Assembly: GCA_900316975.1 (NCBI GenBank)
Contig: ONFA01000024.1
Coordinates: 1 to 33,674, forward strand
From: an uncultured Prevotellaceae bacterium
Lineage (GTDB): Bacteria; Bacteroidota; Bacteroidia; Bacteroidales; Bacteroidaceae
DNA length: 33,674 nt
Direction of reading: 5' to 3'
In this document: positions 29,817 through 31,706 of the stretch, piece by piece
Layout: each line of letters starts with the position of its first letter
How positions within the stretch are numbered: position 1 is the stretch's first letter
Made by a program: the position numbers and the translations under genes
The notes under the pieces: generated by a model
What the model was told of the DNA's origin: nothing
The model's database searches: none
The model's input: the letters and a program-made list of their open reading frames with translations, nothing else

Positions 29817-31706
29817 GTGAACGATATCATTCATCTTTTGCCAGATTCTGTTGCCAACCAAATCGCAGCAGGCGAAGTGGTTCAACGCCCGTCTTCTATC
29901 ATCAAGGAGATGGTGGAGAACTCTATTGATGCTGATGCCACCAGTGTGAAGGTGTTGGTGACCGATGGGGGCAAGACGACGGTGCAGGTGATAGACGACG
30001 GAAAAGGCATGTCGGAAACGGACGCACGGCTTTCTTTCGAACGCCATGCCACGTCTAAAATTCAGAAGGCGTCAGACCTCTTCAATTTAACTACAATGGG
30101 ATTTAGAGGGGAGGCGCTGGCGAGTATTGCTGCTGTGGCTCAGGTGGAACTGAAGACGAGACGCAAGGAGGATGAACTGGGCACGATGATTCAGGTGGCT
30201 GGTTCCAAGATTGAAAAACAGGAACCAGTGGCATGTCCTGCCGGCAGTAATTTCTTGGTACAGAACTTGTTCTTCAACGTGCCGGCAAGAAGGAAGTTCC
30301 TGAAGTCGAACCAGACAGAATTGACAAATGTGGTGGCTGATTTTCAGCGTATCGTTTTGGTTCATCCGGAAATCTCTTTCTCATTATATAATAATGGTGT
30401 GGAGATGTTTCATCTTCCTGCGGCATCTGTTCGGCAACGAATAATTGATGTATTTGGAAAGAAAATCAATGCGGAGTTGTTACCGATAGAGGTGGAGACT
30501 TCCTTGGTGAGCATATCTGGCTATGTGGGGAAACCGGACTCGTCCAAGAAGAAGGGTGTGCATCAGTATTTCTTTGTGAACGGGCGTTATATGCGTCATC
30601 CTTATTTTCACAGTGCTGTGATGAAAGCCTATGAGAATTTGATCCCCGTCGGTGAACATGTGTCTTATTTCATTTATTTTGCCGTAGATGCTTCTTCGAT
30701 AGATGTCAATGTGCATCCGACAAAAACAGAAATAAAGTTTGATAATGAGCAGCCGATTTGGCAGGTTCTTTCTGCTGCAGTGAGAGAAACGATTGGGCAG
30801 TTTTGCAATGTTCCACTCATTGACTTCGATGTGGAGGGAAAACCTGATATTCCAGCCATCGGGGCAAACACATCTATACCACATCAACCTAAGTTGGCGC
30901 CATCCTCCTATAATCCCTTTAAGACTGAAGGCTCTCGGTCTTATTCTCAATCGGCCGGATGGGAAAAATTGTTTGATAAGTATTCAAATCCTGTGTCAAG
31001 TGAAGGTGATGAGGGACTCACCTCTATTCAGATGAATCCATCGGAAAAGGTCCCTGGTGAAGGGGAAGTGCTTGAGGGGGATAATCTTCAGGGTTCTATA
31101 TGGAATGCTGTTATGGGAAGAGACGGTGTCGCAGCTCCTTTTGATGTAACAGTACAAAAGTTTCAGTATAAGGGACGTTACATCGTCCTCCCAAGCTCCA
31201 ATGGCATCATGGTTGTGAATCAGCACCGTGCTCATGTGCGGGTTTTATTTGATCAGAATATGCAATGCATCAATTCTGGTAATCGCCCGTCTCAGAAAGA
31301 ACTCTTCCCTATCGTTGTGCAGTTTGAAAAGGCTGATTGCATAGTGCTGGAGAATTTGATGGAGGATATATGCAGTTTGGGATTTGATTTGTCCAATCTA
31401 GGGGGGGGGGCATATTCGGTGAATGGAATCCCTGCAGGGCTGGAAGGCATTGATATCAACACATTGCTTCATGATATGGTTGTTTCGGCAAAAGAAATGA
31501 CTAATGATATACGCAGAGATGCACAAGAGGCTTTGGCATTGACGATGGCGGAAAATGCGGCAATTGTATATGGGCAAGTTTTGTCATCGATGGAAATGGA
31601 GCGCCTTTTGCGAGATTTGTTCGCAACAAAAATTCCAGCAAGAACGCCAGACGGTAAATTGGTTTATACGATTTTAGATGATAAAATGCTGAATGACCTC
31701 TTTTAA
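29817..31706 (+). CDS. mutL: MutL mismatch repair protein
   Basis: MutL links mismatch recognition by MutS to strand removal. It starts with GTG at 29817. The N-terminal GHKL ATPase has ENSIDA (34-39), DDGKGM (60-65), the ATP lid and GFRGEAL (95-101), followed by the VNVHPTK loop. The C-terminal dimerisation domain (about 435-629) has NQHRAH at 468-473 where nicking MutL proteins carry DQHAxxE. The later Cys/His metal motifs are also missing (TPDGKL in place of CPHGRP), so the endonuclease is probably inactive. A run of ten G (31401-31410, residues 529-532) inside the C-terminal domain is a strong slippage site. Last gene of the surA-OstA operon. Confidence 0.96.
   Translation: MNDIIHLLPDSVANQIAAGEVVQRPSSIIKEMVENSIDADATSVKVLVTDGGKTTVQVIDDGKGMSETDARLSFERHATSKIQKASDLFNLTTMGFRGEALASIAAVAQVELKTRRKEDELGTMIQVAGSKIEKQEPVACPAGSNFLVQNLFFNVPARRKFLKSNQTELTNVVADFQRIVLVHPEISFSLYNNGVEMFHLPAASVRQRIIDVFGKKINAELLPIEVETSLVSISGYVGKPDSSKKKGVHQYFFVNGRYMRHPYFHSAVMKAYENLIPVGEHVSYFIYFAVDASSIDVNVHPTKTEIKFDNEQPIWQVLSAAVRETIGQFCNVPLIDFDVEGKPDIPAIGANTSIPHQPKLAPSSYNPFKTEGSRSYSQSAGWEKLFDKYSNPVSSEGDEGLTSIQMNPSEKVPGEGEVLEGDNLQGSIWNAVMGRDGVAAPFDVTVQKFQYKGRYIVLPSSNGIMVVNQHRAHVRVLFDQNMQCINSGNRPSQKELFPIVVQFEKADCIVLENLMEDICSLGFDLSNLGGGAYSVNGIPAGLEGIDINTLLHDMVVSAKEMTNDIRRDAQEALALTMAENAAIVYGQVLSSMEMERLLRDLFATKIPARTPDGKLVYTILDDKMLNDLF
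31401..31410 (+). repeat. Ten-G homopolymer inside mutL
   Basis: Ten consecutive G encode Gly529-Gly531 and the first base of Ala532. With eleven G the frame reaches TGA after about 17 further codons, and with nine G after about four. Either slip removes roughly the last 95 residues of MutL. Confidence 0.95.

Follow-up and report, generated by a model that had tools for sequence, protein, structure and literature searches.

A guanine homopolymer inside mutL of an uncultured Prevotellaceae bacterium as a candidate slippage hotspot

Mismatch repair suppresses homopolymer slippage, and a slippage-prone tract inside a mismatch repair gene would therefore have the logic of a self-reinforcing switch. 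A run of ten guanines (G10) lies inside mutL in a 33,674-nucleotide stretch of DNA (the window) from an uncultured Prevotellaceae bacterium, whose genome assembly comprises 3.08 Mb in 94 contigs and is 98.8% complete. The tract raises the question of whether cells of this lineage flip reversibly between repair-proficient and mutator states at a single site, as a preliminary description of the window had proposed.

The closest known case is the 6bp-delta-mutL system of Salmonella and E. coli, in which, according to excerpts of Chen et al. 2010 (PMC2955026), a slippage-prone repeat in mutL was likewise proposed to turn the gene from functional to defective and back. The same excerpts report that locking the mutL repeats of Salmonella lowers mutability, that conversion of Salmonella non-mutators went undetected, and that short repeats, mostly mono- and trinucleotide, occur in mutL or mutS of more than 100 species. 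As described there, mutL of Salmonella and E. coli has three 6-bp units and a change of one unit stays in frame, whereas slips in the repeat described here, a homopolymer of G within the C-terminal domain, truncate the protein. The G10 tract is a repeat inside mutL, as in Salmonella, and we infer that it is prone to slip. The Salmonella-type 6-bp unit, which we take to be CTGGCG, was absent from the window as a tandem pair, either exact or with one mismatch, and five matches were found with two mismatches.

Location of the tract and predicted slip products

The features discussed below all lie on the forward strand of the window.

29817..31706, + strand: mutL, intact, GTG start, 629 aa (TIGR00585, 482 bits against a cut-off of 180)
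31164..31577, + strand: Pfam MutL_C dimerisation domain, residues 450-587 (Pfam match)
31218..31253, + strand: site of metal-binding motif II, NQHRAHVRVLFD instead of DQHA(X)2E(X)4E (NQHRAHV for DQHA..E; consensus from excerpts of PMC2965676)
31401..31410, + strand: G10 homopolymer, Gly529-Gly531 and the first base of Ala532 (read from the window sequence)
31420..31422, + strand: TGA ending the -1 frame (G9 product, 534 aa; frame prediction, product found as P0121)
31451..31453, + strand: TGA ending the +1 frame (G11 product, 545 aa; frame prediction, product found as P0123)
31644..31658, + strand: site of motif V, TPDGK instead of C(P/N)HGRP (consensus from excerpts of PMC2965676)

The product scored over the cut-off of the NCBIfam model TIGR00585 and contained both ATPase and C-terminal dimerisation domains (Pfam models over cut-off: PF01119, PF08676, PF13589 and PF02518), which places it among the MutL proteins. 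The preliminary description had assigned the tract to the C-terminal domain within 31398-31412, and this was borne out; the span reads CTA GGG GGG GGG GCA, and the exact tract occupies 31401-31410. Neither strand of the window contained a second copy of GGGGGGGG, and the tract was the only run of G or C of at least 8 bases within the window. An assembly error as the source of G10 in the window is unlikely, since a second genome record has an in-frame G11 with the same codons.

Frame prediction indicated that loss of one G (G9, -1 frame) would add 3 foreign residues before a stop, for a product of 534 aa ending in HIR. Gain of one G (G11, +1 frame) would add a fourth Gly and 13 foreign residues before a stop, for a product of 545 aa ending in GIFGEWNPCRAGRH. 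These predictions agreed with the earlier statements that a slip in either direction meets a stop within 4-17 codons and deletes about 95 residues (534 or 545 aa against 629 aa). The loss of the dimerisation domain that had been expected to follow also held as a prediction, most of the domain being missing.

An AlphaFold2 model of the C-terminal domain (residues 431-629), built on a 35-sequence alignment, had a mean pLDDT of 85. It matched solved MutL C-terminal domains, namely those of B. subtilis and N. gonorrhoeae (NgoL) and entry 1x9z, which is presumably that of E. coli MutL. In the model, Gly529-531 (model residues 99-101, numbered from residue 431) form the predicted turn between strands 94-99 and 102-109, and truncation at this turn would delete everything from strand 102-109 through the last helix. 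The dimer interface of N. gonorrhoeae MutL consists of the last helix and the B1 sheet, as given in excerpts of PMC2965676. Because everything past the Gly turn would be lost, including the last helix that lies at the dimer interface in NgoL, loss of function of the slipped MutL is likely.

MutS1 and MutS2 genes were found in the host genome, which makes a MutS/MutL repair pathway plausible. Compared with the consensus in excerpts of PMC2965676, the host MutL lacks motifs II and V, which characterise the endonuclease type of MutL. The motif V site read xTP.G or xSP.G in all of the 111 aligned MutL copies. A database record and the NCBIfam model both apply the name 'endonuclease' to the host-type MutL despite the absent motifs. 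Dimeric MutL is still expected to be needed for repair in this lineage.

Tract codons in relatives and G runs across genomes

The Gly-Gly-Gly motif was conserved in 70 of the 83 distinct mutL sequences compared, host included. Three GGG codons were present only in the host genome and in one sister species and were absent from the other 81 sequences. The sister, uncultured Bacteroidaceae bacterium isolate Reindeer_1_mag_61 (G041, also L013 and L042), encodes a MutL of about 91% protein identity, and its tract is an in-frame G11, the preceding Leu codon there being CTG. The check on relatives' codons that the preliminary description had suggested gave mixed Gly codons in 68 of the 70 sequences that keep Gly-Gly-Gly. 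GGG made up 7.4% per codon at the motif in these 68 sequences, a rate at which three consecutive GGG codons would be expected 0.03 times in 70 motifs; the next longest G run found at the motif was G7 (L058/L028). Host and sister differed at 22 of 120 bases in the flanks of the tract (82% identical), and their mutL genes were 60% identical at fourfold sites. In view of both figures, recent gene transfer between the two species is not favoured as the cause of the shared tract.

Asn-Leu-Gly-Gly-Gly encoded with nine Gs was found in 2 of 399 family genomes, the host and the sister, which belong to the same genus. A looser tract pattern was found in 2 of 393 order genomes, the host and one other (G627, L210); this second Bacteroidales match was rejected because it lies outside MutL. 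No second origin of the mutL tract was seen in the 399 family or the 393 order genomes. A MutL match was obtained in 40 of the 45 genus genomes (5 had none), and there were no inner stops among the MutL matches listed for these 45 genomes. A record titled Roseburia sp. (L077, JAMPEL010000014.1) encodes a MutL close to those of these Bacteroidaceae, with 59% identity, and its bin or title is probably wrong.

In a 313,674-base sample of the host genome, the number of G/C runs fell from 233 at length 5 to 34 at length 6, and GGG accounted for 10.6% of the Gly codons. Extrapolation from shorter runs gave about 1.2 expected runs of at least 9 bases per genome, and nine were observed in the host (G000), two of which were G10 (in mutL and in the chorismate synthase gene). 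All nine tracts are on the + strand of the contigs that carry them, the search having given 11 forward matches and 0 reverse. The mutL tract is longer than chance would give and has on and off frames, as a contingency locus does. Since G9 was present at least once in 44 of the 45 genus genomes, the host tract count is not unusual for the genus. One genome of the same genus (G044) had 242 G9 matches, whereas none of the other 44 exceeded 24.

These data bear on the view that the tract is an evolved mutator contingency locus, kept because mutator-producing lineages adapt faster, as has been proposed for the mutL repeats of Salmonella. In its favour, the mutL tract was the sole tract of at least nine Gs common to the host (9 tracts) and the sister (6 tracts), two species that differ in the flanks of the tract. 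Retention was compared in mutL and 12 other genes that could be aligned with the sister contig; of the 20 genes tried, 7 lacked a counterpart on it. The sister kept GGG at 3/3 codons of the mutL motif, against 9/26 elsewhere in the aligned genes, and the coding-strand G5 runs of the aligned genes were broken in the sister in five cases out of five. The chance of three retained GGG codons was about 0.04 at the 9/26 rate and 0.17 at its upper 95% limit, and the small number of codons behind this statistic counts against the contingency view. Judged on sequence comparison, the sole shared tract and the GGG retention slightly favour selection over a purely passive history.

Other tracts in the same genome argue against such a locus. 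In the host, the histidyl-tRNA synthetase gene hisS contains a G9 (L002, G000:C32) and the chorismate synthase gene aroC a G10 (L005, G000:C51), both at conserved Gly-Gly-Gly motifs. A frameshift in either gene should be lethal or costly, and switching there should be senseless. The corresponding Gly-Gly-Gly motifs in the sister are written with mixed codons. An IspD-family gene of the host also has a G9 at Gly-Gly-Gly, and the sister has no close counterpart of it (35% identity). The presence of these three tracts in the host, together with the mixed hisS and aroC codons in the sister, indicates that G tracts appear and disappear through the choice of rare codons; the longer persistence of the mutL tract may be luck. 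The restriction of the mutL tract to one genus among the genomes scanned, which suggests one origin only, also weighs against an evolved locus.

Two further observations concern the sister genome. Its chorismate synthase gene is split over two reading frames (L198/L199, G041:C32), by a frameshift or an assembly error. Its G9 tracts include one inside the start of an HlyD-family gene and one inside an S41 peptidase gene (L122, L125), both possibly phase-variable.

Shortened MutL proteins in public data

The C-terminal stretches of the -1 product (residues 475-534) and of the +1 product (residues 480-545), as well as full-length MutL, served as queries against a collection of 5.8 billion predicted proteins. 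The -1 search gave 336 hits from 343 candidates, and the best among the 120 matches listed was P0121, a protein of 534 aa with the exact tail SNLGGGHIR. The +1 search gave 327 hits from 338 candidates; here the best among the 120 matches listed was P0123, of 545 aa, with the exact tail SNLGGGGIFGEWNPCRAGRH. The full-length search gave 7,998 hits, of which the best 120 were all 629 aa. Both truncated products thus have exact counterparts in public protein data, themselves predicted from DNA. Defective length alleles of the kind proposed for Salmonella may accordingly exist in nature, each product being represented on a single contig where error is possible.

Among the matches listed, 2 of 208 distinct MutL proteins were frameshifted at the tract and 206 passed through the motif, in a set that is a non-random sample because two of the three queries had been chosen to find shortened forms and the best 120 per search were taken. 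One of the 206 read-through proteins had Val as the middle Gly, and one had a different end further on. The contigs of the matches listed summed to 1,070, and the shortened forms were on 2 of them, one for P0121 and one for P0123. The P0121 entry lists 18 member sequences, possibly fragments. A further 57 of the 208 listed proteins were 609 aa long and started at residue 21, and they lay between P0128 and P0187. This group was rejected as a disrupted allele, since it formed no clade and 46 of the 57 matched a full-length variant at every position of residues 27-531; by sequence, a contig-edge start at the conserved mutL start is the likelier source.

Over residues 27-531, P0121 was identical to P0072 and P0140, and P0123 was identical to P0109, P0135, P0171 and P0198. 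Given this identity to in-frame variants, the frameshifts are recent, or else they are assembly errors; the pattern would fit recent, non-persisting slips and assembly error equally well. The occurrence of both off frames in public data favours an evolved contingency locus, and their low number among the listed proteins speaks against it. A tract with a single origin and so few off forms hardly resembles a switch in regular use, and we regard an evolved locus of this type as unlikely. It is likewise doubtful that the G10/G11 mutL of these two sister Bacteroidaceae species acts as a self-reinforcing switch under selection, in which the gene would slip off, mutation would become fast, at the tract as elsewhere, and the gene would slip back.

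Rather unlikely, too, is an inert tract, at which slippage would stay within the tolerance of the cell and the two shortened proteins would stem from faulty assembly or sequencing of a difficult homopolymer. If the consensus were wrong at a run of ten identical bases, the resulting protein would be the same as after a real slip. The single contig behind each shortened protein and their complete match to in-frame variants over residues 27-531 fit this explanation, and excerpts of PMC9187656 state that G-tracts in databases can be misread. The same excerpts, however, describe real length mixtures at the G10/G11 tracts of Bifidobacterium, obtained with a method intended to exclude PCR and sequencing error, and the 18 members listed for P0121, which may be fragments, also argue against inertness. 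Slippage of RNA polymerase or of the ribosome, giving a fixed share of short MutL from unchanged DNA, would produce the same -1 and +1 products through the permissive frames, but it is very improbable, because the database proteins were themselves derived from DNA sequence, which places the frame changes in the assembled DNA, and because the G run is not conserved among relatives.

Proposed origin and consequences of the tract

We consider it probable, with some reserve, that the G10 tract is a slippage hotspot which gives rise to rare, temporary MutL-defective cells and which originated by rare codon choice. A conserved Gly-Gly-Gly turn would have acquired three rare GGG codons beside an Ala codon starting with G, and an unstable tract would have resulted. 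Rare cells would then gain or lose one G and produce a MutL that ends prematurely within its dimerisation domain; such MutL-defective cells would likely be temporary mutators until a second slip restored the frame. Purifying selection on MutL would keep the tract in frame in most cells. We infer that the shortened products arise by slippage in living cells, have no repair activity and are lost again by reversion. The mutator-switch reading of the preliminary description is strengthened in part by the tract itself, its frames, the predicted domain loss, the mixed codons of relatives and the exact -1 and +1 products. Its suggestion of an evolved switch fared less well, given the hisS and aroC tracts, the rarity of off-frame forms among the listed proteins and the lack of a second origin in the family and order scans.

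Slippage in other repair and surface genes provides partial parallels. According to excerpts of a review (PMC8875331), slippage at a homonucleotide tract occurs in H. pylori mutY, where, as proposed here, homopolymer slippage frameshifts a repair gene and raises the mutation rate. In the same excerpts, mutY is a base-excision repair gene of a species without MutS, MutL and MutH, whereas the tract described here lies in a gene of mismatch repair, the pathway that limits slippage; in yeast, homopolymer slippage is repaired mainly by mismatch repair. The pilus genes of Bifidobacterium breve resemble the present case in that a gut commensal carries coding G10/G11 tracts at which one-base slips set the frame (excerpts of PMC9187656). 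They differ in that they encode surface pili and are annotated out of frame in the reference, whereas mutL is a housekeeping repair gene and was in frame in nearly all of the listed proteins. Among the open-licence PMC papers listed (25 of 29 matches in one search), none had a title or abstract that dealt with a poly-G switch in mutL of Bacteroidales. Nor did this particular mutL tract, the history that the two species share in it, or the truncated proteins that correspond to its slips turn up among the papers listed; repeat-driven switching of mutL is known from Salmonella.

If the frameshifts are errors, they are a warning that homopolymers of repair genes in metagenome assemblies can mimic loss of function. 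If they are real, one predictable site would be where mutators of a widely sampled gut lineage arise and revert, and metagenome reads already available would suffice to count them directly, with no need for culture. The long-standing question of whether mutators are maintained or just tolerated could then be tested in nature.
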